Shown: positions 40,131 through 64,000 of the stretch, piece after piece
How positions within the stretch are numbered: the stretch's first letter is position 1
How the letters are laid out: each line of letters starts with the position of its first letter
Assembly: GCA_016235045.1 (NCBI GenBank)
Contig: JACRME010000004.1
Location: 248,001 to 312,000 of the forward strand
Length of the DNA: 64,000 nt
Reading direction: 5' to 3'
DNA from: Nitrosomonadales bacterium
GTDB lineage: Bacteria > Pseudomonadota > Gammaproteobacteria > Burkholderiales > Gallionellaceae
Program-made: the position numbers and the translations under genes
Notes under the pieces: model-generated
The model's database searches: none
Seen by the model: only the letters and a program-made list of their open reading frames with translations
Told to the model about the DNA's origin: nothing

Positions 40131-40170
40131 CGCAGTAACGGCGTTCAGGCGACTGGGCGCCGTTACTGCG
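40131..40170. terminator. 13-bp perfect hairpin upstream of gspJ
   Basis: CGCAGTAACGGCG (40131-40143) and CGCCGTTACTGCG (40158-40170) pair perfectly around a 14-nt loop. No T run follows. It lies between the repeat protein and gspJ and may cause partial termination or protect mRNA. Confidence 0.5.
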
Positions 40171-40197
40171 TGCGTTATCCACGATGACAAGGCCCAC

Positions 40198-40836
40198 ATG
40201 AAACTGAACGACTGCGGTGCCAACCCCGCACGGCAGCACCCTCTTTGCGGTGGTTTCACCCTCATCGAACTGCTAGTCGCACTGTTCGTGTTCGCCATTT
40301 TGGCCGTGACCGCCTATCGCGGCCTGAATGCGGTGACGCAGACGCGCGCGCATCTCGATCAGGAGACGCGCAAGTGGCAGGCCCTGGAGCGCTTCTTTGC
40401 GCGGCTGGACGGCGAGACGGCGCAGGTGTTGCAGCGTCCGGTGCGCACTGCGAACGGTGCGGAGGCGCCCGCCTGGGTGGGCACGCCTTCGGCCACGGGC
40501 AGCTTGGAAGATGTGCAACTCGCGTTCACGCGCAACGGCGGTTTCGATGCCGAGGGGGCGCCGCTGCCGCCGCAGCGCATCGGTTATCGTTTGCGCCAGG
40601 ACAAGCTGGAGTTGTTGCGCTGGACTGCGCTGGACAGCGCCCCGTACAATGCGCCGTCGGTGGATACGGTGCTGGATAACGTGGGCGAATTCAATCTGCG
40701 CTACCTGACCAGCCGCATGCAATGGGAAACGCAGTGGCCGCCGAAGATCGCCGACCAGGCGCTGCCAAAAGGGGTGGAGGTGGTGCTGGTGTTGAAGAGC
40801 GGCGAGAAATTGACGCGGTTTTTTTCGCTGCAATGA
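40198..40836 (+). CDS. gspJ: Minor pseudopilin GspJ
   Basis: A 212-residue pseudopilin with prepilin site LCGG^FTLIELLVALFVFAIL after a 19-residue leader. The C-terminal domain is GspJ-like (VEVVLVLKSGEKLTRFFSL). It overlaps gspK by 4 bp. With GspI and GspK it forms the pseudopilus tip. Confidence 0.92.
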   Translation: MKLNDCGANPARQHPLCGGFTLIELLVALFVFAILAVTAYRGLNAVTQTRAHLDQETRKWQALERFFARLDGETAQVLQRPVRTANGAEAPAWVGTPSATGSLEDVQLAFTRNGGFDAEGAPLPPQRIGYRLRQDKLELLRWTALDSAPYNAPSVDTVLDNVGEFNLRYLTSRMQWETQWPPKIADQALPKGVEVVLVLKSGEKLTRFFSLQ

Positions 40837-42955: not shown

Positions 42956-43455
42956 AACAACCCCTCGCCCAACTCAAGGCAAAACACTGGGACACGCTGA
43001 GCGCGACCGAGCAGAAGACCATTCTGCGCGGCGCATGGATACTCTTGCCGCTGCTGATGTACGGCCTGTTGTGGCAACCCGCGCATGAGGCGTTGCCCAA
43101 ACTGCAGGCGGCCCTGCCGCATTTGCGCGCACAGGCCGACCAGATGCAGACGCTCGCCGGACAGGCGCAATCGTTGCGCCAGCAGGCGCAGCTTGCCGTG
43201 CTGGACAGCGACGCGCTGAGGACTGCCGTGGAGAAAGCGGCGAAGGAAGCCAACCTGCCGTTGCTGGTGGTGCCGGGCGAACAGAACAGCGTGCGCATCA
43301 GCGCCGACAGCATCGCCTTCGCGCAGTGGCTGCAATGGCAGCGCGGCCTGGAGCAGACGCAGCATATCCGCGTGGCGTCGGCGATGCTGGTGGCCTCGCC
43401 CGAGCCGGGCATGGTGAAGGTGCAGGCGACGCTGACCAACGGGGCCGATCTGTGA
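42952..43455 (+). CDS. gspM: Type II secretion protein GspM
   Basis: A 167-residue protein with one helix near residues 28-44 (AWILLPLLMYGLLW) and a periplasmic ferredoxin-like domain preceded by a coiled stretch. It partners GspL in the assembly platform. It overlaps gspL and gspN by 4 bp each. Confidence 0.9.
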   Translation: MKQPLAQLKAKHWDTLSATEQKTILRGAWILLPLLMYGLLWQPAHEALPKLQAALPHLRAQADQMQTLAGQAQSLRQQAQLAVLDSDALRTAVEKAAKEANLPLLVVPGEQNSVRISADSIAFAQWLQWQRGLEQTQHIRVASAMLVASPEPGMVKVQATLTNGADL

Positions 43456-44198
43456 CGTCACGCCGGGTGTTGCAGATTCTGCTGTTCGGCTGCGTGTTCC
43501 TCGCCGGGCTGATCGGCTTTGCTCCCGCTTCGCTGATGGGTTCCGCGCTCGAACGCGCCTCCGGCGGCACGCTGACGCTGGCGCAGACGACAGGCAGCCT
43601 GTGGCGGGGTTCGGGCATCGCGCTGCTGCGTCTGAAAGCCCGTTCCCAGACGCTGGGCAGTTACCGCTGGAACCTGAAACCGTTCAGCGCCGCCCTGCAA
43701 GTGCAGGCGGGCGAAGCGACGCCGATGACGGTGCGTTATGTGCCTTTTGCCGGACGCATCGATATCGACAATTTGCATTTCACCCTGCCCGTCTCGGTAC
43801 TGGAAATCGCCGCACCGCAACTTGCCCCCTACCAATTCCAGGGTTCGCTCGACGCACACAGCGAACACCTGGCGCTGGATGCGGCCGGAATAAAAGGGCA
43901 GGTTTCGGTGGACTGGCTGGGCGCCGCTTCCGGCCTTTCCGAAATACGCCCGCTGGGCGACTACCGCATCCTGCTGCAGGGAAACGGCGCAGCGCTGGAT
44001 GCACAACTGTCGACCCTGTCCGGCAAATTGCAGTTGGCCGGCAAAGGCAGTTTCGACAAGGCGTCGGGCATGCGCTTCAACGGCACCGCGCAAGCCGCGC
44101 CCGGCGCGGCCGAGATGGAACTGAACGAGTTGCTGCACCACATCGGGCCGGAAGTCAGGCCGGGCGTGTTCACCTTGGCGCTGATGCCGCAGACTTGA
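43452..44198 (+). CDS. gspN: Type II secretion protein GspN
   Basis: A 248-residue protein with a GTG start overlapping the gspM stop. Residues 8-26 are a membrane anchor and the rest is a beta-rich periplasmic domain (TTGSLWRGSGIALLRLKARS). GspN is an accessory T2SS component of some proteobacteria. It closes the operon, and no gspO peptidase follows. Confidence 0.88.
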   Translation: MTSRRVLQILLFGCVFLAGLIGFAPASLMGSALERASGGTLTLAQTTGSLWRGSGIALLRLKARSQTLGSYRWNLKPFSAALQVQAGEATPMTVRYVPFAGRIDIDNLHFTLPVSVLEIAAPQLAPYQFQGSLDAHSEHLALDAAGIKGQVSVDWLGAASGLSEIRPLGDYRILLQGNGAALDAQLSTLSGKLQLAGKGSFDKASGMRFNGTAQAAPGAAEMELNELLHHIGPEVRPGVFTLALMPQT

Positions 44199-48716: not shown

Positions 48717-49343
48717 CTAGAACGACTCGCCCCGGTACTTGCGGTATAAATCCAGCACCTGCGGCACATAATTCGTCGTCTCGCGATACGGGGGAATCCG
48801 GTTGCCGTATTTCGCGACGGCGGTCTCGCCCGAGTTGTAGGCGGCCAGCGCCAGGCTGACGTCGTTGTCGTATCGCTTCAGCAGATATTGAAGGTACCTG
48901 GCGCCGCCGTGCAGGTTCTGCAGCGGATCCAGCGGGTCGGCCACGCCATAGCGCCGGACAATGTTCGGCATGAGCTGCATCAAACCTGCCGCACCCTTCC
49001 TTGAAACGGCCTTCGACCGGTAGCGCGATTCCACGGTGATCACGGCATGCAGCAACGCGCTATCCAGGCCGTAGGTTACGGCGACCTTCTCGACGGCCCT
49101 GTCGTAACGCGCCTTCTTGGCAATCGCCGGCGACGGATTGGCCTCGGGCGCGGCCGCTTTGACAACCGGTGCGCGCACCAGCAACTGGTAGCGGTCATCC
49201 GCGGGGACATTGCTCAGATTCACCGTGCCGTCGTTCGCGGTAAAGGAGTAGACGCTGGCCTCGGCCGGATGCCCAATGCCGAGCGTGGCCGCCATCAATG
49301 CCGGCAAGGCCGGATACAGCAGGATGTGTCCCGATGCCACCAT
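48717..49343 (-). CDS. Lytic transglycosylase (Slt domain)
   Basis: A 208-residue exported enzyme with a signal peptide at residues 1-27. A short DUF4124-like segment precedes the SLT domain at about 90-200. The catalytic glutamate is in HAVITVESRYRSKA, followed by GAAGLMQLMPNI and the YNSGETAV block. AGGGAG lies 6 bp before ATG 49343; upstream in-frame starts add no recognisable sequence. It cleaves peptidoglycan and may make room for envelope-spanning machines. Confidence 0.88.
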   Translation of the reverse strand: MVASGHILLYPALPALMAATLGIGHPAEASVYSFTANDGTVNLSNVPADDRYQLLVRAPVVKAAAPEANPSPAIAKKARYDRAVEKVAVTYGLDSALLHAVITVESRYRSKAVSRKGAAGLMQLMPNIVRRYGVADPLDPLQNLHGGARYLQYLLKRYDNDVSLALAAYNSGETAVAKYGNRIPPYRETTNYVPQVLDLYRKYRGESF

Positions 49344-50921: not shown

Positions 50922-51578
50922 CTAAGTGACAATCAGCCCTTTTTCGATTGCATAGGCAGTGAGCATCGATGCGTTGTGCAAATCGAGTTTCTTCATCAGG
51001 TTGGAGCGGTGTTTTTCCACCGTCTTGATACTCAGGCAGAAGTAATCGGCTATGAACTTGTTCGGGTGTCCTTCGGCCACCAGCTTCAGCACCTCGCGCT
51101 CGCGGTGGGTCAGCGTATCCCAGGGGCTGGTGGGCGTGTTCGCCTTGTCCGTGCCCAGATAGCCGCTGATCACTTTCGACGAGATGTCTGGACTCAGGTA
51201 AGTCTTGCCGTTCAGCACGCTGCGGATCGCAATGCGCAGTTCGTCGTGCGACGCGTCTTTCAGGATGTAACCGTCCGCTCCCGCGCGCAGGCTTTCGTGG
51301 ATGTACTCGTCGGTCTTGTGCACGGTCAGCACCAGCACGCGTATCGCGGGAAAGCGCCGCTTGATGTCCACGATGGCCTCGATGCCGTTCATGCCCGGCA
51401 TCGACAGGTCGGTCAGCACGAGGTGCGGTGACAGCGCGGCTATCATCTGGATCGCGTCGCGGCCATTTTCGGCCTCCCCGACAATTTCGATATCCGGATC
51501 CTGGGCCAATAGCGCCCGGAGACCGGCGCGCAGCAGGGTGTGGTCTTCTACGATCACCAAGCGCTTTCTTTCAATCAT
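50922..51578 (-). CDS. NarL-family response regulator
   Basis: A 218-residue LuxR-type regulator. The receiver has VEDHTLLRAGL and phospho-acceptor D57 in LVLTDLSMPG; the switch lysine is in GYILKDAS. The C-terminal HTH (about 150-210) is LTHREREVLKLVAEGHPNKF with SIKTVEKHRSNLMKKL. It is convergent with the degenerate sensor kinase and lies directly beside the second pseudopilus cluster, which it may control. Confidence 0.92.
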   Translation of the reverse strand: MIERKRLVIVEDHTLLRAGLRALLAQDPDIEIVGEAENGRDAIQMIAALSPHLVLTDLSMPGMNGIEAIVDIKRRFPAIRVLVLTVHKTDEYIHESLRAGADGYILKDASHDELRIAIRSVLNGKTYLSPDISSKVISGYLGTDKANTPTSPWDTLTHREREVLKLVAEGHPNKFIADYFCLSIKTVEKHRSNLMKKLDLHNASMLTAYAIEKGLIVT

Positions 51579-51615: not shown

Positions 51616-52140
51616 TCAGTTTCCCGGCGATGGACTGGCCGGACGCTGGCCCGGAACATGCATGAACACCCAGTCCGCGTATTTCGTCTTGCCCTCGAAA
51701 TTCCGGTCGGCGAGGCTGAAATTGCTTTTCTTCATCGGCTCGTCTTCAGACAGGCTGTGCACCCCGTATATCTCCCCGTCCGGCCCCCTGACCAACCCCC
51801 ACTTTTCGCCGCCGCCGACGGGATCCGCGAATATCTTGCGCAAATAACGTTGCGTCGACTGGTAGCGCGGATCCTTGAGCAAGTCTTCCAGGCGCAACGG
51901 ATAACGCCGTTCGCGGCCGGGCGTATGCTCGTAATAGCCGTTGAGCGCCTGGCGGAACTGGTTGCCGATAAACAGCAATTCGCGTTCCTTCTCGCGCTTC
52001 TGCGCAGTGTGCCAAACCTCGCTGGTCGTCACCAGCCCCACCCCCATGATAGTGACAATCAGCAACAGGCCTATATAGGTAAAACCGCCTACACGGCATG
52101 CCTGCTTTCTGCTTCCGCTTTTGTTCCAGGCAATCCGCAT
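51616..52140 (-). CDS. Pseudopilin-like protein of the second cluster
   Basis: A 174-residue protein. The N-terminus CRVGG^FTYIGLLLIVTIMGV is a prepilin-like site, but position 5 is Gly instead of Glu. The coiled segment HTAQKREKERELLFIGNQFR and the YPLRLEDLLKDPR block resemble GspG-like minor pilins. The start at 52140 overlaps the previous gene's stop. It is the last gene of the cluster. Lack of Glu5 suggests a tip (GspK-like) position. Confidence 0.72.
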   Translation of the reverse strand: MRIAWNKSGSRKQACRVGGFTYIGLLLIVTIMGVGLVTTSEVWHTAQKREKERELLFIGNQFRQALNGYYEHTPGRERRYPLRLEDLLKDPRYQSTQRYLRKIFADPVGGGEKWGLVRGPDGEIYGVHSLSEDEPMKKSNFSLADRNFEGKTKYADWVFMHVPGQRPASPSPGN

Positions 52141-52520
52141 CACCAATCCCCGTATTTCGAGCCGTCGCGCGCAATTCCGGGCGCCCCGCTCCGGATGTCG
52201 AAGACGCCGCCCTTTTCCGGAGTATCGGGCGGCACCACAAGCCACGCCGTGCTGTTGCCGGTAAAAGGGTCGGCCGGCAGGCTGCGCAAATATTTCTTCC
52301 TGACCAGGTCTTCCAGGCTGTCGGGATAGCGGTTGTTGTCGCCGTAATATTTGTCCAGCGCCGTCCGCGTCAGCGCTAGATTCTGGTGCAGCACCGCCTC
52401 TTTGGAATTCTCCACGCTGTGAAAATACCGCGGCACCGCAATCGTCAGCAGCGTTGCGATGATCGCCATGACCACCAGCAACTCGACCAGGGTGAAGCCT
52501 TCTTTTGCATGCCTGCTCAT
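52140..52520 (-). CDS. GspG-like pseudopilin of the second cluster
   Basis: A 126-residue pseudopilin with site AKEG^FTLVELLVVMAIIATLL and intact Glu5. The C-terminal half has the short GspG layout (YYGDNNRYPDSLEDLVRKKY), ending in SKYGDW. It overlaps the next gene by 1 bp. Confidence 0.85.
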   Translation of the reverse strand: MSRHAKEGFTLVELLVVMAIIATLLTIAVPRYFHSVENSKEAVLHQNLALTRTALDKYYGDNNRYPDSLEDLVRKKYLRSLPADPFTGNSTAWLVVPPDTPEKGGVFDIRSGAPGIARDGSKYGDW

Positions 52521-52533
52521 CTGTGCCTGCTCC

Positions 52534-53016
52534 TCACCAGTTCCGGTAGGGAACGCCGTTCATGCCGACGCCGAAGGATTGGGAGTACACGTCGAAAACA
52601 TCCTCCCCTTCTTCCGGTTCCTCGGCGCCGCTTGCGTAACTGCGTTTGCCCCATGTTTCCTCATCCTGCATGTCCGCATCGGCGGCCATCGGATCGCGCG
52701 GGATGCGCCGCAGGAAATATATCCTGTCCTTGCCGTCCGGGCTGGCGGCATCCGGCACGCCTTCCACCAGCGCCTTCAGCGACGGCGGATAGCCCGACCT
52801 GATCAGCGAGTGCATGACGCGTCCCTCGTCCACCGCGCGTTTGTAGGCATCCAGGCCGTCGCGAATCTCGCGCAGGGCCAGGCGCAGTTCCTGTTCCTTG
52901 CTGCGCTGCACCGCAAGCTCCGTCATCGGCAACACCACCGTCGCCAGCATGCCGACGATGGCCACCGTGATGACCAGCTCGATCAGCGTGAAACCTTTTG
53001 CGGCGGACATCGTCAT
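52534..53016 (-). CDS. Pseudopilin of the second cluster
   Basis: A 160-residue pseudopilin with site AAKG^FTLIELVITVAIVGML and Glu5. A coiled stretch (ELAVQRSKEQELRLALREIR) is followed by a domain with YPPSLKALVEG and FLRRIPRDPM. It overlaps the secretin gene end by 4 bp. It is one of three pseudopilins downstream of the secretin. Confidence 0.85.
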   Translation of the reverse strand: MTMSAAKGFTLIELVITVAIVGMLATVVLPMTELAVQRSKEQELRLALREIRDGLDAYKRAVDEGRVMHSLIRSGYPPSLKALVEGVPDAASPDGKDRIYFLRRIPRDPMAADADMQDEETWGKRSYASGAEEPEEGEDVFDVYSQSFGVGMNGVPYRNW

Positions 53017-55298
53017 GGCGCGACCGCAATGAAATGCGGGGCGGGCGCCTTAAACGCCAGCGCCTCCCCGCCCGTGCCGGACAAGGCCACGCGGCTGACC
53101 GTAACCGGTGACCGTGCGGTGGCGGCAGTCACTTCGAACGTCAGCGTGACCACGCTGCCCTCGCCGTCGGCGGCCGAACCCTTCATGTCCACCAGAATCT
53201 GGCCGCCCGCCTGGTCTATCGTTTTGGTGAAATTCGGCGGTAAATTGTCCTGCTGCATGAAGTCGCCCGCGGCGGCATCGGTCGCCTTCAGCACGGCCGG
53301 ATCGAACCCCACCAGGAAGCCGAGGCCGCTCACGCCCTGCGCAGCCTGCGTGCTGAGCGTCAGGCTGATCTTGTCGCCGACCCTGGCCTGTTTCGGCCCC
53401 TGCCATGAAAACACCTGCGGTTGCGCCGCGGCTTCCGGCCGGGCCTGGGCAACCTCCTGCCGGGCGCGCGCAGACGCGCTGCCGCCGCCGTTGACGGCGA
53501 CCACGCCGAGCTGATTCATCACCAGCGGCTTGTTGCGCAAGCTGGTTTCGGTGCCGGACCAGTACTCCACTTCGCGCGCATCCGGAAGCCGGTTGTTGCC
53601 GACGATGTGCGGCGTGATGGAAAGCACGATTTCCGTCTTGCTGCCGTTATCCTTGTTGCTGGCAAACAGGTGCCCGAGCAGCGGCAACTGCCCCAGCCCC
53701 GGCACCTTGCTGGCGGTGTTGCGGTCTTCGTCGTTGATCAGGCCGGCCAGTATCTGCGTTTCGCCATCGCGCAGGCGCAGCACGGTCGAGGCATTGCGGG
53801 TGCCGACCTGGTACGACAGCGTGCCGGACACCTTGTTTTCCACCTCCTTGATGATGGAACTGACTTCCAGGTTGATCTTGATGGCCACCTCGTTGTCGAG
53901 ATAGACCTCGGGCTCGACTTCCAGCTTGAGGCCGACGTCCAGATACTGCACGCTGCCGGTGATCACCGGGCTGCCGGTCGTCACCGGCGTCACCGCATTG
54001 GTGATGACCGGCACGCGGTCGCCGATCATGATCTTGGCCTTCTCGCGATTGCGCGCGCGGATGCGCGGGCTGGCCAGCAGATTGGTATCGCCGTCCTGCA
54101 GCAGCAGGTTGAGCGTGACCGCCGTTGCCGGGCTGGTCAGGATATTGTTGCTGTTGATGTGCTTCAGCGCTTCGAGGGTCGGCCCCGAGTCGGCGGTGGC
54201 GCCCTGTGCCGAAAGGGTCAACTGGCTGGGAAACTTGATGCCGATCTCGGACAGGCGCGAACTGCTGATCTCGATCACTTCCACTTCCAGCATCACTTCC
54301 GGATCGGCGATATCCTGGTCCGCCACCATTTTCTCGGCCAGGCGGATCGCTTCCGGCGTGTCCCGCATCACCAGCGAATTGGTCTTCTCGTGCACGAACA
54401 CGTCCCTGGTCTTGAGCAGCGTCTTGATCATGGTCAGCATCTGCTTGGGGTCGGCGTTGGTGAGATGGAAGCTCCTGATCTTGAGGTCCTGGTAGTCCTT
54501 GATCTTGGCCGGCGTATTCGGGTAGATGAACACGGTGTTGTCGCTGACGATCTTTTTCTCCAGTTGGCTCTGCAGCAGGATCAGGTCGATCGCATCCTCC
54601 ACCGAAACGTCCTTGACGAAAATCGAGGTCTTGATATCCGGCCTGACATCCTTGTCCAGCAACACGTTGATGCCGCTGGTGCGCGACAACGCCTCGAACA
54701 CCATCTTCACGTTGGCATCGCGGAACTGCAGCGTGACGGGTTTCTTGAACTTCGCCTTGAGCGACGGCCCCTCCAGCATCCCCTTGGCCGCCAGCTCGTC
54801 GATCTGGCGCTGCAACTGGAGCGCCTGCCCGTGTTTCGGGTTTTCCAGGAACAACGGCACCAGCGCTGCGCGCGCCGCCTCGGTATCTCCCTTTTTGAGC
54901 AGGTTGCGCGCTTCATCCATCATCGCGTTGTAGCGCCGGTCCGCCGCCAGCGCTTCCAACCCCATCCCGGCCCGGCCGTTGCCCGGATCGATCTTGAGGA
55001 TGCGTTCGTAGATCGCCTGCGCCGCCTCCAGGCGCCCGGCGGAACGCTCGCCATTGGCGGCCGCGAGCAATCGGGTGGTCAGTTGCTCGCGGTTGCGCAG
55101 CCAGTCCTTGCGGTAGGTCGCATTGTCCGGCTCGGCCTTGCTCGCCTGTTCCAGTTTCACCAGGGCTTCTTCCGCACGGCCCTCTTCCAGCAGCGACATG
55201 CCGTCGCGGTGCAGCTTGTTCCCGGCGCAAGCCGCCAGGGTGATGGCGACCAGCACCGGCAGCGCATTGCGTCCGAATTCGATCCATAGTCCACGCAT
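53013..55298 (-). CDS. Lipoprotein secretin with TPR and C-terminal cohesin-like domain
   Basis: A 761-residue outer membrane secretin. AAAGGGG precedes ATG 55298. The lipobox is ITLAACAGN, near residue 24. Residues 25-165 are TPR-like helices (GRLEAAQAIYERILKIDPGN). N0/N1 domains follow (VTLQFRDANVKMVFEALSRT) and then the secretin core (about 330-590, ending LPLLGHLFASNKDNGSKTEI). After a linker, residues about 640-745 resemble a cohesin domain (ARVGDKISLTLSTQAAQGVS, GFLVGFDPAVLKATDA). Such a domain could bind substrates or surface partners outside the cell. Confidence 0.88.
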   Translation of the reverse strand: MRGLWIEFGRNALPVLVAITLAACAGNKLHRDGMSLLEEGRAEEALVKLEQASKAEPDNATYRKDWLRNREQLTTRLLAAANGERSAGRLEAAQAIYERILKIDPGNGRAGMGLEALAADRRYNAMMDEARNLLKKGDTEAARAALVPLFLENPKHGQALQLQRQIDELAAKGMLEGPSLKAKFKKPVTLQFRDANVKMVFEALSRTSGINVLLDKDVRPDIKTSIFVKDVSVEDAIDLILLQSQLEKKIVSDNTVFIYPNTPAKIKDYQDLKIRSFHLTNADPKQMLTMIKTLLKTRDVFVHEKTNSLVMRDTPEAIRLAEKMVADQDIADPEVMLEVEVIEISSSRLSEIGIKFPSQLTLSAQGATADSGPTLEALKHINSNNILTSPATAVTLNLLLQDGDTNLLASPRIRARNREKAKIMIGDRVPVITNAVTPVTTGSPVITGSVQYLDVGLKLEVEPEVYLDNEVAIKINLEVSSIIKEVENKVSGTLSYQVGTRNASTVLRLRDGETQILAGLINDEDRNTASKVPGLGQLPLLGHLFASNKDNGSKTEIVLSITPHIVGNNRLPDAREVEYWSGTETSLRNKPLVMNQLGVVAVNGGGSASARARQEVAQARPEAAAQPQVFSWQGPKQARVGDKISLTLSTQAAQGVSGLGFLVGFDPAVLKATDAAAGDFMQQDNLPPNFTKTIDQAGGQILVDMKGSAADGEGSVVTLTFEVTAATARSPVTVSRVALSGTGGEALAFKAPAPHFIAVAP

Positions 55299-55342
55299 GA
55301 TCTGTGCCCCTTTATTATTTTGGAAAAAAGGTGTCCCGTTTT

Positions 55343-55855
55343 TCATAATGCCCCGCCGCCGTTGCTCAGCGTTTGCCGGGTGTTCAGCGGCAGGTAAGTC
55401 ATTTCCACCGTGCCGGGCGTGACACGCTCGATGCGGTAGGTATTCTCGATGACCTCCCCTTCGGCAACCGTGTACATCCGCTCGCCCTTGAGCAGGATGG
55501 CCAGCAATGTCGGCGCATCCGCATACAGGCCGAGATAGGTGAACGGTAGCGGCGGCGCCGTCGGCACCGACGGCGGTGCGGGCGGCGGCGCGGGCCGCGG
55601 CGGCTGCACATACCATGAGGTGACGCCGAACGCGTTGCCTATCCCCGCCTTCGGTTGCGGCCGGTTCAGGCGCTCCAGCTCGACCTGTCCCGTTTCCGGC
55701 TGCTGACCGAGACGCGCCGGTTCGCGCTCGGCCCGCGCGGCAACGCGCGTCGGCTCTGCCGCACCCTCTTCCCCCGGCGTTGCCGCCATGACGATGGCCG
55801 TCGCCACCGCGCCGAGCGCCACCCACCAGCCCAGCTTGCGCGGCAGCCGTCTCAT
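55343..55855 (-). CDS. PilP/GspC-like periplasmic linker protein
   Basis: A 170-residue protein. Residues 9-25 are a membrane anchor or signal (WWVALGAVATAIVMAA). A Pro-rich linker leads to an HR-type beta domain at about 105-160 (FTYLGLYADAPTLLAILLKG, YTVAEGEVIENTYRIERV) like that of PilP, MshK and GspC, which binds secretin N domains. The start overlaps the PilO-like gene by 4 bp. Confidence 0.75.
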   Translation of the reverse strand: MRRLPRKLGWWVALGAVATAIVMAATPGEEGAAEPTRVAARAEREPARLGQQPETGQVELERLNRPQPKAGIGNAFGVTSWYVQPPRPAPPPAPPSVPTAPPLPFTYLGLYADAPTLLAILLKGERMYTVAEGEVIENTYRIERVTPGTVEMTYLPLNTRQTLSNGGGAL

Positions 55856-56487
55856 GGCGATTGCTCCATAAAAAGCGCCAGCCGGATGCGCGCCTCCACC
55901 GACGAGTCGGTGACGTTCTCGCGGGTGAACTGGACGTTTTCCAGCGCGACGATGGGTATCTCCACCGCCAGCGCCGCGAGGAAACGGCGTATCTGCCGGT
56001 ATTCGCCCTTCACCGGCAGCACCATCTGCAGACGCATCAGCCGCCCCGCCTTGTCCCGCGTCGCCTTGTATTCCCCCTCCTGCAGACCGAGTCCGTTCTT
56101 CCCGGCCAGTTCGACCAGCTTCTTCAGCCACTGCGGCGCAGAACGCTCTTCCGGAAAAATGCGGTAAAACTCTTCGAGCTGTCCGGCCGGCGTGGCGCGG
56201 CTGCCGTCAAAGGATTTGCTGGCATGCTGTATCTGTTCGCGCAGCGAAAGCGTGCTGCGGCGTGCTTCTTCCAGGCGCTGTTGCGCCGGGGCGATCGCCG
56301 AAAAATAGAACGGCGGAAGCACGCACAGCATGCCGATGGCCAGCACGCCGGGCTTGCCCAGCATGCGCAACCCGCGCCGCAACATCCAGCGCAATTGAAC
56401 TCCCAGCGGCACGGCCGACGACAGGTCCAGCCATTGCGCAACCCGGCCCGACGCAACGCCCGCCCACTTGTGCGCAAGGCTTCTCAT
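55852..56487 (-). CDS. PilO-like assembly protein
   Basis: A 211-residue bitopic protein with one helix near 47-64 (VLAIGMLCVLPPFYFSAI), a coiled coil (QRLEEARRSTLSLREQIQ) and a periplasmic ferredoxin-like fold (LVLPVKGEYRQIRRFLAALA). In pilus systems PilO pairs with PilN on the inner membrane. Start and stop overlap both neighbours by 4 bp. Confidence 0.78.
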   Translation of the reverse strand: MRSLAHKWAGVASGRVAQWLDLSSAVPLGVQLRWMLRRGLRMLGKPGVLAIGMLCVLPPFYFSAIAPAQQRLEEARRSTLSLREQIQHASKSFDGSRATPAGQLEEFYRIFPEERSAPQWLKKLVELAGKNGLGLQEGEYKATRDKAGRLMRLQMVLPVKGEYRQIRRFLAALAVEIPIVALENVQFTRENVTDSSVEARIRLALFMEQSP

Positions 56488-57017
56488 GGCTGCCCCCGCC
56501 AGTCGGCAATCAGCGCAAAACGCACCGGCCGCTCGGGGTCCTGCAGTTGCACCTGGTGGCTTTGCAGGAATACCGAGCCGAACGCTTCCTGCTCTTCCAG
56601 CCGCGCGATGTAGTTCAGCATCACCAGCATGTCCCTGGCCTCGCCGCTGATCTTCACCTGCTGCTTTTCAATATCCGGCTCCAGCGCCAGCAGGGTGACC
56701 TTGCGGTCGCCGGCCGCTTCCACCGTCTGGAACAGTTGTTCCCACGGCAAGGTGAGCTGGCGCAACACCTCGTTGGCGCGTTTCACTTCCAGCGCCAGTC
56801 TTTCCGGCTCGTGAGCGCCGCGACCGTCGGCCGTCGGCCGCAAGCCGTGGCCGCGCCCGATCGATTGCAGTTTCTCCTCCCACGCGGCCGCCCTGTCGTT
56901 CAACTGCAGGTAGTACGCGACGCTCAGCAGCAGGGCCAGCAGCGCCAGCGCGAGCAACAGCGGCCCCGCCCAGTGGAACGGCCGGTATTGCTGGTAATCG
57001 AGCCAGAGCGCGGCCAT
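56484..57017 (-). CDS. PilN-like assembly protein
   Basis: A 177-residue protein. A short cytosolic N-terminus (ALWLDYQQYRPF) would fit the groove of the PilM-like partner. A helix follows at 18-40, then a coiled coil and a ferredoxin-like domain (VTLLALEPDIEKQQVKISGE). GGGAGG precedes ATG 57017, 4 bp after the PilM-like gene. Confidence 0.78.
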   Translation of the reverse strand: MAALWLDYQQYRPFHWAGPLLLALALLALLLSVAYYLQLNDRAAAWEEKLQSIGRGHGLRPTADGRGAHEPERLALEVKRANEVLRQLTLPWEQLFQTVEAAGDRKVTLLALEPDIEKQQVKISGEARDMLVMLNYIARLEEQEAFGSVFLQSHQVQLQDPERPVRFALIADWRGQP

Positions 57018-57021
57018 CGCA

Positions 57022-57867
57022 TCACCCTCCCAGCGCCACGGCAAACTGCCGCTCGTATTCCGGCAGGAAGTCCGGCCGGATCGCGGGTTGCAACGCGTGG
57101 ATTTTCCAGCCGGCACTCTGCGGCAATTCCGATTTCTCAAGTTCGGGCGCCCACAGGAAAATTTCGTCCGTCGTCACCTCGCGCTCGGCCAGGTACGCTT
57201 CCCGCTCCAGCGTGAGCGCCAACCTGTCGCGCCAGTCGCTGCCCGCGCGCAGCGTGCGCACGCTGCCCAGCCTGCCTTGCTGCAGCAGGGCGAGGCACAG
57301 GCTGCCCCTCTCGAACAGCACGAACCACGCGCTGCGTCCCTGCAATGTGCCGCGGCAACTGTTGTAGGCCGCCATCAGGCTGGGCTGGATCGAGCGCAGT
57401 TTTATCCCGGCGTCCGCGAACGCGCCGCGCACGCCATGCATCAGCTTGCCGTCCACCGCGCTGGCCAACTGCGGCTCGCCCGCCCGGTCCGGACTCAGGC
57501 GCAACTCCCATGTCTCGGCGGCGGAACCGTACAACTCCCTGAAGAAGTGCCGCGCGACCGCGCGTTCTTCCTCTTCGCCGCCCAGCGCGCCGCTCCACGG
57601 CACCAGGGCATAGCGCATGAAATGATTGGACAGGATCACGGTCGCAAAAGCCGTGCCGTTCGCCAGCCCCGGCAATTCCGCCGCCAGCATCTTGACTGCG
57701 CTGTCCCACTCGTTGTCGCCGCCGTCCGCAACGCCGCACGGGATCGCTTTTTTCTGCAGCACGCGGCGCGTCAGCCCGCGCCATGCGAGCGTGCGCCCGA
57801 TGCGCACCAGCAGCAGTTGCTGCGGCGCCAGCACCACCCGCAATTCCTCACGCAACGAAAGTGACAC
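57022..57867 (-). CDS. PilM/MshI-like actin-fold protein
   Basis: A 281-residue cytosolic protein with a GTG start and AGGAG 7 bp before it. It shows a degenerate actin-like layout (GRTLAWRGLTRRVL, MLAAELPGLANGTAFATVIL, WFVLFERGSLCLALL) as in MshI and the GspL cytosolic domain. The classic PilM nucleotide motif is absent. It should link the ATPase to the PilN-like protein. It overlaps the ATPase gene by 20 bp. Confidence 0.72.
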   Translation of the reverse strand: MSLSLREELRVVLAPQQLLLVRIGRTLAWRGLTRRVLQKKAIPCGVADGGDNEWDSAVKMLAAELPGLANGTAFATVILSNHFMRYALVPWSGALGGEEEERAVARHFFRELYGSAAETWELRLSPDRAGEPQLASAVDGKLMHGVRGAFADAGIKLRSIQPSLMAAYNSCRGTLQGRSAWFVLFERGSLCLALLQQGRLGSVRTLRAGSDWRDRLALTLEREAYLAEREVTTDEIFLWAPELEKSELPQSAGWKIHALQPAIRPDFLPEYERQFAVALGG

Positions 57868-59545
57868 GATTGATCTCCTGTAATGTCGTTTCGCCCCGGA
57901 ACACCATCTCCAGCGCGTCCTCGCGCAGGAAGCGGGTGCCGTTGCGCCGCGCGGCTTCGCGGATCAGGCGCACCGGTTGCCGCGCGACGATGAGTTCGCG
58001 GATCTCGTCGTTCAGGTAAAGAATCTCGGCGATGGCCTTGCGCCCCTTGAAACCGCTGCCGCGGCACTGGCCGCAGCCGCGCCCGGCGCGGAATGTCGCG
58101 CGTTCCGCCTCGGCGGGAGTGATCCCGGACTGCCGCAACAGCTCCGCATCCGGCTTGTCCTCCGCCGCGCAGTGCGTGCAGTTCACGCGCACCAGGCGCT
58201 GGGCCAGGATGCCGTTCATGGCGGAGACGAAACTGTAGGGATCGACGCCCATGTGCATGAAACGGCCGATGACGTCGAACACATTGTTGGCATGCACGGT
58301 GGTGAATACCAGGTGGCCGGTCAGCGCCGATTGCACGGCAATCTGCGCGGTCTCCGGATCGCGTATCTCCCCCACCATGATCTTGTCCGGGTCGTGCCGC
58401 AGGATGGAACGCAGGCCGCGCTCGAAAGTGAGCCCCTTCTTTTCGTTGACCGGTATTTGCAGCACGCCGGGCAACTGGTACTCGACCGGGTCTTCGATGG
58501 TGATGATCTTGTCCTGCCCCTGGTTGATCTCCGAGATCGCGGCGTACAGCGTCGTCGTCTTGCCGCTGCCGGTCGGGCCGGTGACCAGCACCATGCCGTA
58601 GGGTTCGCTGGAAAGGCGGCGCAGCGTGGCGATGGACGGCGCATCGAAGCCCAGACAGTCGAGGCGCAGCCCCTTGATCTGGTCGGACAATGTCTGCTTG
58701 TCGAGAATGCGCAGCACGGCGTCTTCGCCGAAAATGCTGGGCATGATGGACACGCGCAGGTCCACTTCGCGCCGGTTCATCGACACCTTGAAACGGCCGT
58801 CCTGCGGCACGCGCCGCTCGGCGATATCCAGGCCGGAGACGACCTTGATGCGCGAGACCACCTGCTCCGCCATCTCGATTCCCGCCACCGCGCCGACCAT
58901 GCTCAGCACGCCGTCGATGCGGTATTTGATATTGAGACCGGACGGGCCGGTTTCCAGGTGGATGTCGCTGGCCTCGGCCTTCAGCGCGTCGTACACCGTC
59001 GAATTGACCAGCTTGACGACGGGGCTGACATCCTCGCTGATGGTCTTGAACGACAGCTCTTCCACGCCCTCCTCCGGCGTGGCCGCCTTCCCCGCCACCG
59101 CCTGCAGGCTGTCCATGGCATGCAGCGATTCTTCGTAGTGCGCCAGATAGGCGGCGATATCCGCGCGATGCGCCAGGCCCCAGCCGAAATCCCCGGCAAT
59201 GCGCTGTTCCGCCCAGGTTTGCAGACCGGCATCGAACGGGTCGCTCATGATCATGTGCAGCTTGCCGCCGTCCCGCAACGCGATGCATTCCCGTTCCATC
59301 GCCTCGGCAAAATCCAGCGTGTCGAAGGCGGGCGTCATCCGGTTCAGCTCGTCCATGCCGAACGCCGCATAGCCGAGCATGTTGCCCAGGGCGTCGACGA
59401 ATTCCTTCGCCTCCAGGCCGGTCTGTTCTTGCAGCACTTCGGTCACGCTGCGCAGCGTCTGCGCGGCAATGGCGCGCGCTTCGCGCACTTGCTGCGTGGA
59501 CAATATCCGCCCGGTGCGAATGGGAGCCTCGGCGACCAGGTTCAT
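57848..59545 (-). CDS. GspE/MshE-like assembly ATPase
   Basis: A 565-residue ATPase. The N-terminal MshEN/GspE-type domain (residues 30-150) is followed by the ATPase core. Walker A is GPTGSGKT (323-330), then HDPDKIMVGEIRDPETAQ and the His box LVFTTVHANN. The zinc knuckle is CTHC...GCGQCRGSGF. The start at 59545 overlaps the platform gene by 4 bp. It powers assembly of the second pseudopilus. No retraction ATPase (PilT) is present. Confidence 0.93.
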   Translation of the reverse strand: MNLVAEAPIRTGRILSTQQVREARAIAAQTLRSVTEVLQEQTGLEAKEFVDALGNMLGYAAFGMDELNRMTPAFDTLDFAEAMERECIALRDGGKLHMIMSDPFDAGLQTWAEQRIAGDFGWGLAHRADIAAYLAHYEESLHAMDSLQAVAGKAATPEEGVEELSFKTISEDVSPVVKLVNSTVYDALKAEASDIHLETGPSGLNIKYRIDGVLSMVGAVAGIEMAEQVVSRIKVVSGLDIAERRVPQDGRFKVSMNRREVDLRVSIMPSIFGEDAVLRILDKQTLSDQIKGLRLDCLGFDAPSIATLRRLSSEPYGMVLVTGPTGSGKTTTLYAAISEINQGQDKIITIEDPVEYQLPGVLQIPVNEKKGLTFERGLRSILRHDPDKIMVGEIRDPETAQIAVQSALTGHLVFTTVHANNVFDVIGRFMHMGVDPYSFVSAMNGILAQRLVRVNCTHCAAEDKPDAELLRQSGITPAEAERATFRAGRGCGQCRGSGFKGRKAIAEILYLNDEIRELIVARQPVRLIREAARRNGTRFLREDALEMVFRGETTLQEINRVTFVA

Positions 59546-60519
59546 TTGATGCTCCCCGCCAGTTCGAAGATCGGGAAATACATCAGCACCACGATGATGC
59601 CGATGACCAGTCCGACGAACGTCATCAGCAAGGGTTCGAACAGCTTGACGAAACGCTCGACCCAGCGCGCCGTCTCGTCCTCGTAAAACGCCGCGATGCG
59701 CTCCATCATCCCGCCCATCTGCCCGGTGCGTTCGCCCACGCGCAGCAGGCGCAGCGCCAGCGGGGTGGCCAGCCCGTACTGGTCCATGGCCTGCGAGATG
59801 GAACCGCCCTCCCGGATGCGCGTCGCGGCCAGCAGCAGATTCTCGCGCAGCGACGCCTGCAGCAGCCCGCCCACCAGCCGCAGCGAATCCAGCACCGGCA
59901 TGCCGCCCTGCAGCAGCATGCCCAGCGAACGGTAGAAACGCGCCATCTGGTACAGGTGCAGCCGCTTGCCCAGCGCGGGAAACTGCCACAGCTTGCGCTC
60001 GACCCACTGCCTGCAGGCCGGCCGGGTGGCGGCAAACACCAGCCCGCCGCACAGCAGGATGATTCCCGCCAGGAACAGCCGCCAGTGCTCGTCCAGCAAG
60101 CGCCCCCATTGCATCAGCAGCCAGGACATGAGCGGCAGGTCGCCGCCGATATCCGCATAGATGTGGCTGAAGCGCGGCACCACGAACAGCATCAGGAACA
60201 GCATCACCAGTCCGCCGACCACCGCGAGGATCGCCGGGTAGATCGAGGAGGTGATGACCTTGCGCCTGATCCCCTCCATCTGCGACTGGTAGACGATGTA
60301 GCGCGACAGCACTTCGGCGAGCGCGCCGGTTTTTTCGCTGGCGCGCACGGTGGCCACGTCCAGTGCGGGAAAATCCGACCATTGCTGCCTGGCCCTGGCC
60401 GCAATGACGGTATAGCCTTGCGCCTGCGCCTGCGCGGCGGCATCGACGGCATCAGCCGCTTCCAGCATGATCGCCATCAGCCCTTCGCTGCCGCGCAACA
60501 CTTTTACTTCGTATTGCAT
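59542..60519 (-). CDS. GspF-like platform protein, internally shortened
   Basis: A 325-residue inner membrane protein with three membrane helices and a complete second T2SSF domain (RFYRSLGMLLQGGMPVLDSL). The first domain is short: after YTVIAARARQQW it resumes at FPALDVATVRASEKTGALAE. Compared with the other GspF in this window, about 75-80 residues that include the RQLATLLEAGLPL helix are missing. The frame is intact, so this is an in-frame loss or a natural variant. Confidence 0.85.
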   Translation of the reverse strand: MQYEVKVLRGSEGLMAIMLEAADAVDAAAQAQAQGYTVIAARARQQWSDFPALDVATVRASEKTGALAEVLSRYIVYQSQMEGIRRKVITSSIYPAILAVVGGLVMLFLMLFVVPRFSHIYADIGGDLPLMSWLLMQWGRLLDEHWRLFLAGIILLCGGLVFAATRPACRQWVERKLWQFPALGKRLHLYQMARFYRSLGMLLQGGMPVLDSLRLVGGLLQASLRENLLLAATRIREGGSISQAMDQYGLATPLALRLLRVGERTGQMGGMMERIAAFYEDETARWVERFVKLFEPLLMTFVGLVIGIIVVLMYFPIFELAGSIK

Positions 60520-60553
60520 AGACACCCCGCCCCGTTCGTTTGTTTGCCGCCCC

Positions 60554-61003
60554 TTACCAGTTGGTGATGTCGGCCGCCTCGCCCTCGCCGCCGGGTTTTC
60601 CATCCTTCCCGAAGGAGAGCAGGTCGTAGTCGCCGTGCTCGCCCGGCGACTTGAACACATAAGCGTTGCCCCACGGATCGAGCGGCACGCCCTTGCTCAG
60701 GTAAGGCCCGTCCCATTTGGGTTCGTTGGCGGGACGTGTAACCAGTGCCGCCAGCCCGACTTCCATGCTCGGGTAGTGCCCCGTATCCAGGCGGAAATAA
60801 TCCAGCGCCTTGCCCAGCGCATCCACCTGCGCGAGCGCCGCCTTGATTTCCGACTTGCCGATCTGGGAAAAATATTTGGGCCCCACATATCCGGCGAGCA
60901 GGCCGATGATCACCATGACCACCAGCAGTTCGAGCAGCGTGAATCCCCTGCTTGCCCCGCGTTGCCGCCCGGTTGCGCCGGTGCCGGATTGGTTTTTTTC
61001 CAT
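60554..61003 (-). CDS. GspG-like major pseudopilin of the second cluster
   Basis: A 149-residue pseudopilin with site ASRG^FTLLELLVVMVIIGLLA and Glu5. The start at 61003 has GGGAG 9 bp before it. The C-terminus has the GspG calcium-loop pattern (GVPLDPWGNAYVFKSPGEHG, YDLLSFGKDGKPGGEGEAAD). It heads the operon and is probably the most abundant subunit. The 294-bp gap upstream holds no gene. Confidence 0.93.
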   Translation of the reverse strand: MEKNQSGTGATGRQRGASRGFTLLELLVVMVIIGLLAGYVGPKYFSQIGKSEIKAALAQVDALGKALDYFRLDTGHYPSMEVGLAALVTRPANEPKWDGPYLSKGVPLDPWGNAYVFKSPGEHGDYDLLSFGKDGKPGGEGEAADITNW

Positions 61004-61297: not shown

Positions 61298-62320
61298 ATG
61301 GCCGCAAATGACGGGCAATCGCCGCACACGCTGGCGGAGCACCGGCTCGAGCTCGATACATTGCGCTTCGAACTGGGCGAGATGCGCCATCAGCTCGATG
61401 TGGCATCCAGCCTGACCGCGCGCATCATCGAAACCGCGGCCGAGGGCATGCTGATCACCGATGAGCGCCGGATCATCCGTTCGGTCAATCCGGCCTTTGA
61501 AAAATCCACCGGCTACGCCGCGGCCGAGGCCATCGGCCGCACCCCGTCGCTGCTCCGGTCGGGACACCACGACCCGGCTTTTTACCGCGAAATGTGGGAC
61601 AGCCTGGACAAGCTTGGGCAATGGCAGGGCGAAATCTGGAACCGGCACAAGAGCGGCGAAATCTATCCCGAGTGGCTGTGCATCAGCGCCGTCAGGGACA
61701 GCCGGCAAAACGTGAGCCACTACGTGGGAATTTTCTCCGATGCCCACACCCAGGAATACATCCTGGAACGCCTGCATTACCTGGCCTACTACGACGGGCT
61801 CACCGGCCTGCCCAACCGGCGGCTGTTCCTGGATCGCCTCAACGTGTCCCTTTCGCATGCCCGGCGCGACAAGCAAATGCTGGCGGTGATGTTCGTCGAT
61901 CTCGACCGCTTCAAGCAGGTCAACGACACGCTGGGGCACAAGGTCGGCGACAATTTGCTGCGGGGCGCAACGGAACGCATGAAAGGCTGCCTGCGCGACG
62001 CGGATACGCTGGCGCGGCTGGGGGGCGACGAGTTCACCGTGATTCTCCCGTTCCTGCCCCACCCCGATGCGGCCGGCCATGTCGCCGAAAAATTCCTCGA
62101 ATGCTATGCCCGGCCCTTGCCCGTGGACGGGCATAATTTGCGCATCACCGCCAGCATCGGCATCGCCGTTTATCCCCACGACGGCGAGGATGCGGACACT
62201 CTGCTGCAGCATGCGGATGCCGCCATGTACCGCATCAAGGAGTCGGGACGGAACGGCTGTTTGCGCTACAGCGCCGGAATGCTCGCGGGATTGATTCCCG
62301 GCAGCGCATCTTTGCCCTAG
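61298..62320 (+). CDS. PAS-GGDEF diguanylate cyclase
   Basis: A 340-residue soluble protein. A coiled N-terminus (residues 10-38) leads to a PAS domain (about 40-155; GMLITDERRIIRSVNPAFEK, WQGEIWNRHKSGEIYPEWL). The GGDEF domain covers about 165-325. The active site RLGGDEFTV is intact and is preceded by an RDAD I-site for product inhibition. It makes cyclic di-GMP in response to an unknown signal. It is divergent from the second pseudopilus operon, so it may link c-di-GMP to that system. Confidence 0.93.
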   Translation: MAANDGQSPHTLAEHRLELDTLRFELGEMRHQLDVASSLTARIIETAAEGMLITDERRIIRSVNPAFEKSTGYAAAEAIGRTPSLLRSGHHDPAFYREMWDSLDKLGQWQGEIWNRHKSGEIYPEWLCISAVRDSRQNVSHYVGIFSDAHTQEYILERLHYLAYYDGLTGLPNRRLFLDRLNVSLSHARRDKQMLAVMFVDLDRFKQVNDTLGHKVGDNLLRGATERMKGCLRDADTLARLGGDEFTVILPFLPHPDAAGHVAEKFLECYARPLPVDGHNLRITASIGIAVYPHDGEDADTLLQHADAAMYRIKESGRNGCLRYSAGMLAGLIPGSASLP

Positions 62321-62393: not shown

Positions 62394-63227
62394 TCACAGG
62401 AAATCCGACAGCTCGTCGAATGGCCACGAGATGCCGATCCGCGTTCCCTCGCCGCAGGCGGAATGCATCGTGTAATCGCCGCCGGAAAGAACGGCCCGCT
62501 CCCGCATGCTCATCAGTCCCAGCCCGCGGTCGGCGCCGGTGCGGATGGCAACCTCGGCCTGGTCGAATCCGTCGCCGTTGTCCTCGATCGAGAAATGCAG
62601 GGCATCGCCGCTTTTCCCGAGGCGCACCCGCACCAGGTCGGCATTGGCGTACTTGACGATATTGCTGCATGCCTCCTGCACGATGCGGAAGATCGTGATC
62701 TTGAGCTTGCCGGGAATGCTGGTTTCGAGCAGATCGAATTCCTTCTCCACTCTCACTCCCCGGCAGGAGGCCTCGAATTCGCGGAAAAACCATGACAAGG
62801 TGGGCAGCAGCCCGAGGTCGTCCAGCATGGGCGGACGCAGATCCATGGCAACATGGCGCACATCCTCCAGCGCCTCGTGCGCCTTGATCCGCAGACGCTG
62901 CAGGGATGCCGTGGCTTCGCCGACCGCGCCGCCGGCGAGCTGCAGCTCGGTTTCCGCCAGCGCAAACTTGATCATGGTCAACGCCTGCCCGAGCCCGTCG
63001 TGCAGATCCGCGGCAATCCGCTTGCGTTCGTTTTCCTGTATCGACAGCAACTGGTTCGCCATCCAGCGCACTTCGGCTTGCGGCGCGCAGGACGCTTCCG
63101 TTGCCTTGTCGCACTCGGCGGGAAGGTCGCACAGCCTTGGACGGTATTTGATGCTCTTGCCGCCTGGCGCTTCCCTCTCGGCCGCCAGCCGCAACTGCGC
63201 CAACTCCATCATCGTTTCCGTATTCAT
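62394..63227 (-). CDS. Soluble NarX/NreB-type sensor kinase with clustered cysteines
   Basis: A 277-residue cytosolic kinase without membrane helices. AGGGGG precedes ATG 63227. Residues 33, 39 and 47 are cysteines (RLCDLPAECDKATEASCAP), which could bind an Fe-S cluster or sense redox state. The HisKA_3 acceptor is H76 in IAADLHDGLGQALTMIK. The ATP site is complete: SNIVKYA, EDNGDGF and RGLGLMSMRERA. It lies just after a FixJ-type regulator gene on the same strand and probably pairs with it. Confidence 0.9.
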   Translation of the reverse strand: MNTETMMELAQLRLAAEREAPGGKSIKYRPRLCDLPAECDKATEASCAPQAEVRWMANQLLSIQENERKRIAADLHDGLGQALTMIKFALAETELQLAGGAVGEATASLQRLRIKAHEALEDVRHVAMDLRPPMLDDLGLLPTLSWFFREFEASCRGVRVEKEFDLLETSIPGKLKITIFRIVQEACSNIVKYANADLVRVRLGKSGDALHFSIEDNGDGFDQAEVAIRTGADRGLGLMSMRERAVLSGGDYTMHSACGEGTRIGISWPFDELSDFL

Positions 63228-63458: not shown

Positions 63459-64000
63459 TCAATCCTCGCGCAGGGCCAGCCGGTTCTGCACCAACTCGGC
63501 GATGGTGCGGATGTTGAGTTTGCGCATGATGTTGGCGCGGTGGATGTCCACCGTTCTCGAACTGATGCCGAGCTTTGTTCCAATGACTTTGCTCGGGTTG
63601 CCGGCCACCACGAGCTCCATGATTTCCCGTTCGCGCGCGGTCAGCGCGTCGAAGTGGCTGCGCAGCCGGTCCAGCTTCCGGCTTTTCTGGCGATTTTCCC
63701 GCACCTGTTGCAGCGCGGCATGCACGCGCTCCAGCAGGTCGTGGGCGCTGAAAGGCTTCTGCACAAAATCGAATGCCCCCAGCTTCAGCGCGCGCACGGC
63801 CAGCGGAACGTCGCCGTGACCGGTAATGATGATCACCGGCAATGAAACCCCGTTCGCCTTGAGGCTCTCCAGCAACTCCATTCCGCTCATGCCCGGCATG
63901 CGGATGTCCAGCAGGATGCAGCCCTGCAGGCGCGGGTCGCAGAATTCCAGGAACGCGCTCGCATCGCCGAACATCCTGCTGGGGAGGTTCACCGAATCGA
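63459..64000 (-). CDS. FixJ/NarL-type response regulator, partial (start off window)
   Basis: About 180 residues are visible; the frame is open to the right edge, so the N-terminal acidic pocket is missing. The phospho-acceptor is in GCILLDIRMPGMSGMELL, and the conserved IIITGHGDVPLAVRALKLGA and FVQKPFSA follow. The LuxR-type HTH is LTAREREIMELVVAGNPSKV with SRTVDIHRANIMRKLN. The TGHGD motif is typical of FixJ/FixJ-like regulators. The soluble sensor kinase follows after 231 bp. Confidence 0.9.
   Translation of the reverse strand, partial: DSVNLPSRMFGDASAFLEFCDPRLQGCILLDIRMPGMSGMELLESLKANGVSLPVIIITGHGDVPLAVRALKLGAFDFVQKPFSAHDLLERVHAALQQVRENRQKSRKLDRLRSHFDALTAREREIMELVVAGNPSKVIGTKLGISSRTVDIHRANIMRKLNIRTIAELVQNRLALRED

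Follow-up and report, generated by a model that had tools for sequence, protein, structure and literature searches.

Why does a bacterium that already encodes a type II secretion system (T2SS) carry, a few kilobases away, a second set of genes in which T2SS-like and pilus-like parts are mixed, and what does this second machine do? The question is raised by a 64,000-nucleotide stretch of DNA from a Nitrosomonadales bacterium of the Gallionellaceae (assembly GCA_016235045.1, contig JACRME010000004.1, positions 248,001 to 312,000), referred to here as the window. At positions 51616-61003 of the window, eleven genes are all encoded on the minus strand with intergenic gaps of -4 to +44 bp. A sequence-only reading had taken them for an extra machine, mixed in composition and resembling mannose-sensitive hemagglutinin (MSHA) systems. 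We find that the machine is real, conserved, distinct and T2SS-like. Within the type IV filament superfamily it falls into a clade of its own, common in betaproteobacteria, and it probably serves as a dedicated second exporter with a T2SS-like mode of working. The eleven genes, in order of transcription and followed by a NarL-type regulator gene, are:

60554-61003, minus strand: G, major pseudopilin of GspG type (TIGR01710, 173 bits against a cut-off of 89; PF08334, 9e-41)
59542-60519, minus strand: F, inner-membrane platform protein of GspF/PilC type, 325 aa (PF00482)
57848-59545, minus strand: E, assembly ATPase of GspE/PilB type (PF00437, 411 bits)
57022-57867, minus strand: M, cytoplasmic actin-like protein of PilM/GspL type, whose start may be 57867 or 57837
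56484-57017, minus strand: N, PilN-like, candidate counterpart of the periplasmic portion of GspL (PF05137, 20.4 bits, short of the 22.8 cut-off)
55852-56487, minus strand: O, PilO/GspM-like (PF04350, 27.5 bits, cut-off 22; T2SSM_b, 21.1 bits, just under 21.7)
55343-55855, minus strand: P, GspC-HR/PilP type, modelled as one membrane helix that a proline-rich linker joins to a small beta domain
53013-55298, minus strand: D, lipoprotein secretin that has TPR at its N terminus and a cohesin domain at its C terminus
52534-53016, minus strand: pp2, minor pseudopilin (N_methyl), the best family marker
52140-52520, minus strand: pp3, minor pseudopilin (N_methyl; T2SSG below cut-off; best NCBIfam match GspG, 49 bits, cut-off 89)
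51616-52140, minus strand: pp4, minor pseudopilin without Glu5, GspK/PilX-like tip candidate

Gene calls, Pfam and NCBIfam profiles and fold comparisons agree on this inventory, which bears out the G, F and E types, the PilM/N/O/P-like proteins, the secretin and the three additional pseudopilins that had been read from the sequence. M, P and pp4 matched no Pfam family. An AlphaFold2 model of M, built on 54 aligned sequences, has an actin-like fold (pLDDT 90) with PilM as the best Foldseek neighbor; FtsA and the EpsL/PulL cytoplasmic domains rank lower. M and N appear to be fused in a GspL-like manner in L035 and L084, as judged by length and place, and by the same criteria also in L119 (L numbers denote loci, G numbers genomes and C numbers contigs). 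Foldseek matches of the P model are weak, with the GspC HR domain of enterotoxigenic Escherichia coli first (3oss, TMt 0.78, E 0.014), PilP also present (2y4y, TMt 0.65) and none at 0.001. Searches against solved structures returned only general PilB/PilF/GspE and GspD/PilQ relatives. Among scored relatives, glutamate occupies the Glu5 place in 83 of 83 pp2, 76 of 77 pp3 and 56 of 64 G proteins and in none of 74 pp4 proteins, counts to be read knowing that the scoring script misplaced the cleavage site in some proteins (e.g. L030, L032). The window's secretin contains STN, Secretin_N and Secretin domains in addition to its TPR and cohesin domains. All 58 family members scanned with Pfam have the three secretin parts, 39 have TPR_19 and only 19 have cohesin, so that cohesin was rejected as a defining feature of D. 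Most relatives, 74 of 83, also have a lipobox.

The operon belongs to a widespread family. A search with the M protein matched 6 of 274 class genomes, including the host, and a pp2 profile matched eight, six of them at more than 240 bits. The pp2 alignment, which has 35 invariant columns in 12 sequences, was additionally compared with 84,980 species genomes. This gave at least 337 stretches confirmed by tblastn at E 1e-3, the weak end of which may consist of other pseudopilins, and the best 80 were kept. Betaproteobacteria are named in 72 of these best 80 titles, with Gallionella and Sideroxydans loci on top. Together with six plasmid-record loci and five class-genome loci they form a set of 91 loci, 90 of them distinct because L031 and L110 are the same DNA. 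Gene order could be judged in 68 of the 91, the other 23 being too short or having no called pp2. It is kept without contradiction in 54 of the 68 assessable loci, an arrangement far beyond chance, and all eleven genes are labelled in 34. Departures from this order include apparent M-N fusions, relocation of G to the end (L034, L036) and errors of the gene caller, which missed or mis-started genes in, for example, L037, L039, L048 and L068; L074, L098, L099 and L113 are uninformative owing to poor gene calls. A divergent sister machine, with G between pp3 and pp4 and with E at 52% and 46% identity, was observed in L232 (G239:C30) and L233 (G021:C49), respectively. It is followed in L232 by an RHS protein and a PKD-domain protein.

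E and D were the proteins placed in phylogenetic trees (IQ-TREE, LG+C20). The E tree comprised 64 ATPases (25 of 72 family members, 16 of 31 T2SS, all 12 MSHA and all 10 PilB sequences, and one TfpB) and the D tree 69 secretins (25 of 84 family members, 16 of 29 T2SS, 16 of 22 MSHA and 12 of 15 PilQ). Reference T2SS, MshL and PilQ sequences were picked by NCBIfam score. The MSHA ATPases were ten that adjoin MshL plus two from the host, and the PilB sequences were selected by score pattern, all ten afterwards passing TIGR02538. In each tree the 25 family members form one clade with 100/100 support, apart from the T2SS, MSHA, PilB and TfpB sequences in the E tree and from the T2SS, MSHA and PilQ sequences in the D tree. 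The sister group of this clade did not resolve; bootstrap values of the secretin tree had not fully settled, and the MSH group in the E tree has a support of 70/93 only. Both E and D hence lie outside the MSHA, T2SS and type IVa pilus (T4aP) groups, and because they form a clade of their own the family is not MSHA. Family cut-offs together with these trees rule out membership in MSHA, T4aP or plain T2SS.

Profile scores describe how far the likeness to T2SS extends. G passes the GspG equivalog TIGR01710, whereas E (482 bits versus a cut-off of 630 for GspE), D (173 versus 351 for GspD) and F (217 versus 424 for GspF) remain under theirs, the score of F being lowered by a shortening described below. 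GspL, one protein in the T2SS, is split into M and N in the window. The three minor pseudopilins, including the one without Glu5, do not exceed the GspH, I, J or K cut-offs, and the window's own gspC is also below its NCBIfam cut-off. Shared with the T2SS are E, F, the secretin, the GspL-type fold of M, a GspM-like O, a Glu5-less pseudopilin and linked exoenzyme genes. Different are the gene order and the family secretin, which has a lipobox, often TPR and sometimes cohesin. A T2SS-like exporter is suggested because of these folds, the Glu5-less tip pseudopilin and the linked exoenzyme genes. The mixture of T2SS-like and pilus-like parts in an extra machine beside a T2SS is supported by family and fold matches.

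The pilus-like parts might instead indicate a surface pilus or adhesin of the MSHA or T4aP kind, in which case the linked enzyme genes and the two-partner secretion (TPS) and PEP-CTERM genes described below would be biofilm neighbors and not cargo. We regard this as unlikely. M, N, O and P are separate proteins, as in T4aP, but the major subunit is of GspG type, no PilT retraction ATPase is encoded in the cluster, and the modelled P is anchored by a membrane helix, unlike PilP, which is a lipoprotein (and is so titled among the structure matches). E reaches 473 bits versus the PilB cut-off of 676 and D 151 versus the PilQ cut-off of 284, in addition to their position outside the MSHA and T4aP clades. 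MSHA is part of the same superfamily, and E has an MshEN match of 22.5 bits, just under the cut-off of 23.1. The resemblance to MSHA noted from the sequence does not hold up, however, as the secretin scores 113 bits against an MshL cut-off of 250, E and D fall outside the MSHA clade and two MshL-type systems occur elsewhere in the genome. Pfam detects no MshM-like gene among the eleven and none like MshN, a component of the MSHA system. According to PMC6668835, mshM is mandatory for the MSH definition, and Denise et al. leave 884 systems as generic (PMC6668835).

The host genome (3.15 Mb, 33 contigs, 95% complete; the window lies within contig C12) encodes five secretins and has six GspE/PilB-type ATPase matches, as well as three smaller ones of PilT size and one weak match. 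The canonical gsp cluster is located at 28402-44198, 7.4 kb from the eleven-gene operon. Its D, E, F, G, I, J, K and L products exceed NCBIfam cut-offs, the C, H and M products stay short of theirs, and gspN, which has no family match, is named from its place only. The supposed complete gspC-N operon 8 kb away is this T2SS cluster, at 7.4 kb. MshL-type secretins occur in two additional systems, one at 251 bits, above the cut-off of 250, and one at 236 bits, slightly short of it, and a PilQ and a TfpB-type ATPase are also encoded elsewhere in the genome. Gene content and profile matches agree with the earlier statement that the eleven genes include neither PilT nor a prepilin peptidase. The three PilT-size matches are on contigs other than the window's, and the lack of a retraction ATPase in the cluster supports the exporter reading. 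There is one PF01478 match in the genome, and a single prepilin peptidase would have to serve all host systems. Within the canonical gsp operon, a 783-aa protein with a PhoX alkaline phosphatase match is encoded between gspF and gspG (34668-37019, plus strand) and is likely a dedicated cargo of the canonical T2SS, and a 321-aa protein that matches an ice-binding beta roll below threshold lies between gspI and gspJ (39096-40061, plus strand). Additionally, a 798-aa protein with a GspE-type ATPase domain occurs among signalling-like genes of the same contig (L023, C12 near 226575); no pilus genes were recognised in that 20-kb stretch when it was compared with the proteins of the window and of the loci.

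The genes that border the operon, several of which recur beside its relatives, are:

50922-51578, minus strand: NarL-type response regulator, 37 bp after pp4 and likely in the same operon
62394-63227, minus strand: HisKA_3 histidine kinase (HK2), the likely partner of NarL
48717-49343, minus strand: DUF4124 and SLT lytic transglycosylase, a recurrent neighbor
61298-62320, plus strand: PAS-GGDEF diguanylate cyclase between the operon and the kinase; membership doubtful
63459-63992, minus strand: FixJ-type response regulator; membership doubtful; a PAS-rich kinase begins just past the window edge

Pfam matches verify the borders as first described, with NarL on one side and the GGDEF, kinase and FixJ-type genes on the other. 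The association with two-component genes extends to other loci. A NarL gene directly follows pp4 on the same strand in L029, L041, L042, L051 and L075, and relatives of HK2 are directly upstream of the operon in L031 (= L110), L041, L051, L073, L075 and L115. Clustering of neighbors placed the lytic transglycosylase in 20 loci, response regulators in 19 (15 of the 26 proteins in this cluster match the window's NarL best) and HisKA_3 kinases in 10 (9 distinct), each in addition to the window. The proposed connection to c-di-GMP is weak, as relatives of the GGDEF gene are clustered in only 3 other loci, and c-di-GMP signalling as a conserved part is unsupported. The GGDEF neighbor would fit a biofilm pilus, as would the commonest downstream cassette, which encodes a LuxR-type regulator (17 loci), a PEP-CTERM protein (20), a protein of about 490 aa (15), TpsB (14) and TpsA (11), such that a TPS adhesin with PEP-CTERM recurs in 14-15 loci. 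The cassette follows the operon in L063, L068, L083, L091, L092, L094, L095, L107, L111, L116 and others; the representative of its ~490-aa protein has no Pfam match.

Genes for extracellular enzymes also adjoin the operon, as determined by Pfam searches with representatives of the neighbor clusters. GH18 chitinases are present in 6 loci from 3 genera, five of which also have GH19. There is an M4 protease cluster in 3 loci, a subtilase cluster in 3 and S8 in 2 of the neighbors scanned, and GH64, NPCBM and, in L035 and L037, RHS proteins are likewise found. Multicopper-oxidase pairs occur in 4 distinct loci (L031 (= L110), L038, L041 and L073), accompanied by SCO1 in L041 and L073 and by giant proteins in L038, L041, L073 and L110. 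Because the machine repeatedly adjoins extracellular-enzyme genes, export of exoenzymes is probable.

The chitinase linkage allows a count, which covers 42 of the 80 collection genomes. The six genomes chosen because GH18 adjoins the operon have 1, 1, 1, 1, 2 and 2 GH18 matches, and by position 7 of these 8 are beside the operon, with L106 having one on each side. Among 36 further machine-bearing genomes, 19 have a GH18 match (18 over cut-off), and none of their 90 matches, fragments included, is beside the machine as judged by clustering and by positions compared by hand with contig names hidden. Of the 98 matches in all 42 genomes, 7 lie beside the machine, against an expectation of 0.19 for 5 kb to either side (Poisson 2e-9, or 1e-3 if three independent events are counted). 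This linkage argues against a surface pilus. Crude prediction of signal peptides among same-strand neighbors gave 65 of 140 at places 2-4 versus 18 of 90 at places 5 and beyond.

In the host, the best candidates for cargo are the multicopper oxidases, the S8 protease and the giant protein whose genes lie 9-22 kb upstream. Past the window's right edge (L125), the operon strand encodes the PAS-rich kinase, followed by a cytochrome that contains a periplasmic-binding domain, SCO1, an S8 protease that has cadherin-type repeats, a 179-aa protein, three multicopper oxidases, the first of them with Ig repeats, and a 1726-aa protein. Distances from the start of G are 7.1 kb to the beginning of the cytochrome gene, 9.4 kb to that of the protease gene, 12.3-16.8 kb for the three oxidase genes and 22.1 kb to the end of the giant gene. 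Relatives of the oxidase MCOa (E 1e-20) are present in 7 of the 274 class genomes: in 3 of the 6 with a strong pp2 match versus 4 of the 268 others (Fisher 2e-4). The three genomes with both (G000, G213, G239) have a copy no more than 25 kb from the machine on the same contig; the copy closest to the host's in sequence, at 64%, is in G239 on a contig other than that of its machine. Machine-distant cassettes in L228 (G239) and L229 (G101) adjoin a HisKA_3 kinase and a NarL gene, and since these NarL proteins are 51% and 60% identical to the window's, one regulator type for machine and cassette is suggested. A conserved cluster in L227, L228, L229, L230 and the host's L125 encodes a giant protein, multicopper oxidases, a protein of 140-180 aa and an S8 protease. 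L229 and L230 are cut by contig ends, the genomes of L227, L229 and L230 have no pp2 match, and in G239, the source of L228, the machine is on a different contig. Strict coupling of machine and oxidase was rejected, 4 of the 7 MCOa genomes having no pp2 match. We regard the oxidase cassette as a plausible, though still tentative, cargo of the machine in this host.

A number of observations count against an exporter dedicated to linked enzymes. The TpsA of the commonest downstream cassette (14-15 loci) should leave by TpsB, and 18 of the 36 further machine-bearing genomes have an over-cut-off GH18 that is not beside the machine. The excess of signal peptides does not extend to same-strand neighbors at place 1 (21 of 80), and neighbors on the opposite strand reach 31 of 111 at places 2-4. 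Lineages that carry the machine are not independent of one another. As for the oxidases, MCOa is present without a pp2 match in four genomes (G008, G076, G101, G137), and machine-less copies are 53-61% identical to the host's, compared with 37-53%, partly over short stretches, for near-machine copies elsewhere. The host cassette is furthermore not adjacent to the operon, as the GGDEF gene, two kinases and a regulator are in between. Finally, the window's own copy may be impaired, as F is about 70 residues short.

The shortened F, a feature not remarked on in the sequence-only reading, measures 325 aa compared with a median of 395 aa in 69 relatives, the single shorter one (L098) being from a broken assembly. 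Alignment with these relatives places the absence of ~70 residues in the first cytoplasmic domain as a clean in-frame gap, so either the host copy is impaired or the assembly lost a piece. This gap, and a T2SS cluster only 7.4 kb off, would suit an operon that is decaying in this host, with a non-functional F and with export left to the canonical T2SS. We consider decay to be doubtful, as the deletion keeps the reading frame, could itself be an assembly error and is accompanied by ten other genes that are open and within the length range of their relatives (O, M and D on the long side). Nevertheless, because F is ~70 residues short, the proposed function rests on the family more than on the host copy.

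For the family, a T2SS-like exporter could operate as follows. Cargo would reach the periplasm via Sec or Tat and fold there. E, acting through F and through M bound to N and O, would build a short pseudopilus of G with pp2, pp3 and pp4 at its tip, where pp4 would take the role of GspK. This pseudopilus would push cargo through the secretin D, which would hold its own lipid anchor and be tied to the inner membrane by the GspC-like P. The lytic transglycosylase may open the cell wall, and the HisKA_3/NarL pair may switch the operon on.

The closest functional precedent for such an exporter is the Pul/OxpG system of Geobacter, which was called an atypical T2SS in the title of Mehta 2006. The family could even be the betaproteobacterial ortholog of that system, a possibility we hold only tentatively and have weighed by description. 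In Geobacter, the multicopper oxidase OmpB cannot be secreted without the Pul system and its PulG, OxpG and TklG pseudopilins (PMC3543383), and the gene for OmpB sits with a MofC-like gene and SCO1 (PMC5566968), as in the host cassette. The cytochrome with a periplasmic-binding domain in that cassette has the make-up of MofC-like proteins (PMC5566968). Both systems have several pseudopilins. The family described here is linked to a wider range of candidate cargo.

The host cassette also resembles, by description, the magnetite-induced cupredoxin cluster Slit_1812-1818 of Sideroxydans lithotrophicus ES-1 (PMC12016527, PMC5566968). Both include a cytochrome that contains a periplasmic-binding domain, together with SCO1, multicopper oxidases and a large protein, and the host additionally has the S8 protease. 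According to Keffer et al., levels of the ES-1 counterparts rise on magnetite, and these proteins are predicted to be extracellular (PMC12016527); the word 'secretion' does not occur in the text of that article. It is conceivable, if speculative, that in metal-oxidising betaproteobacteria the operon, the HisKA_3/NarL pair and the oxidase cassette make up a single unit, a dedicated machine that would deliver oxidases and a giant surface protein to the cell exterior to act on solid metal minerals. Such a unit would be an oxidising counterpart of Geobacter Pul/OxpG-OmpB, and other betaproteobacteria would have loaded the machine with chitinases, proteases or RHS proteins.

If the exporter reading is true, the exit of particular exoenzymes from many betaproteobacteria would be accounted for by a T2SS-like exporter of a separate kind, present in this host beside a normal T2SS, and genomes whose only GH18 adjoins the machine would be a convenient model for cargo recognition, a long-standing question of type II secretion. 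In iron oxidisers, the machine would provide an export route for extracellular copper proteins raised on magnetite (PMC12016527). We found no description of the family as such or of its function in the open-licence literature searched. The term 'unorthodox T2SS' is in use for Ralstonia. A family member has nonetheless been listed as a gene cluster: for Cupriavidus metallidurans CH34, PMC2864759 describes a smaller second gsp cluster, Rmet_4704-4713 on CHR2, with gspD, gspEFG, two more gspG and four hypothetical genes, and mentions the cluster in R. solanacearum GMI1000; the passages on these clusters give no family, function or cargo. Locus L038, from the CH34 megaplasmid record, holds the family's eleven genes and, judging from content and replicon, presumably is Rmet_4704-4713.

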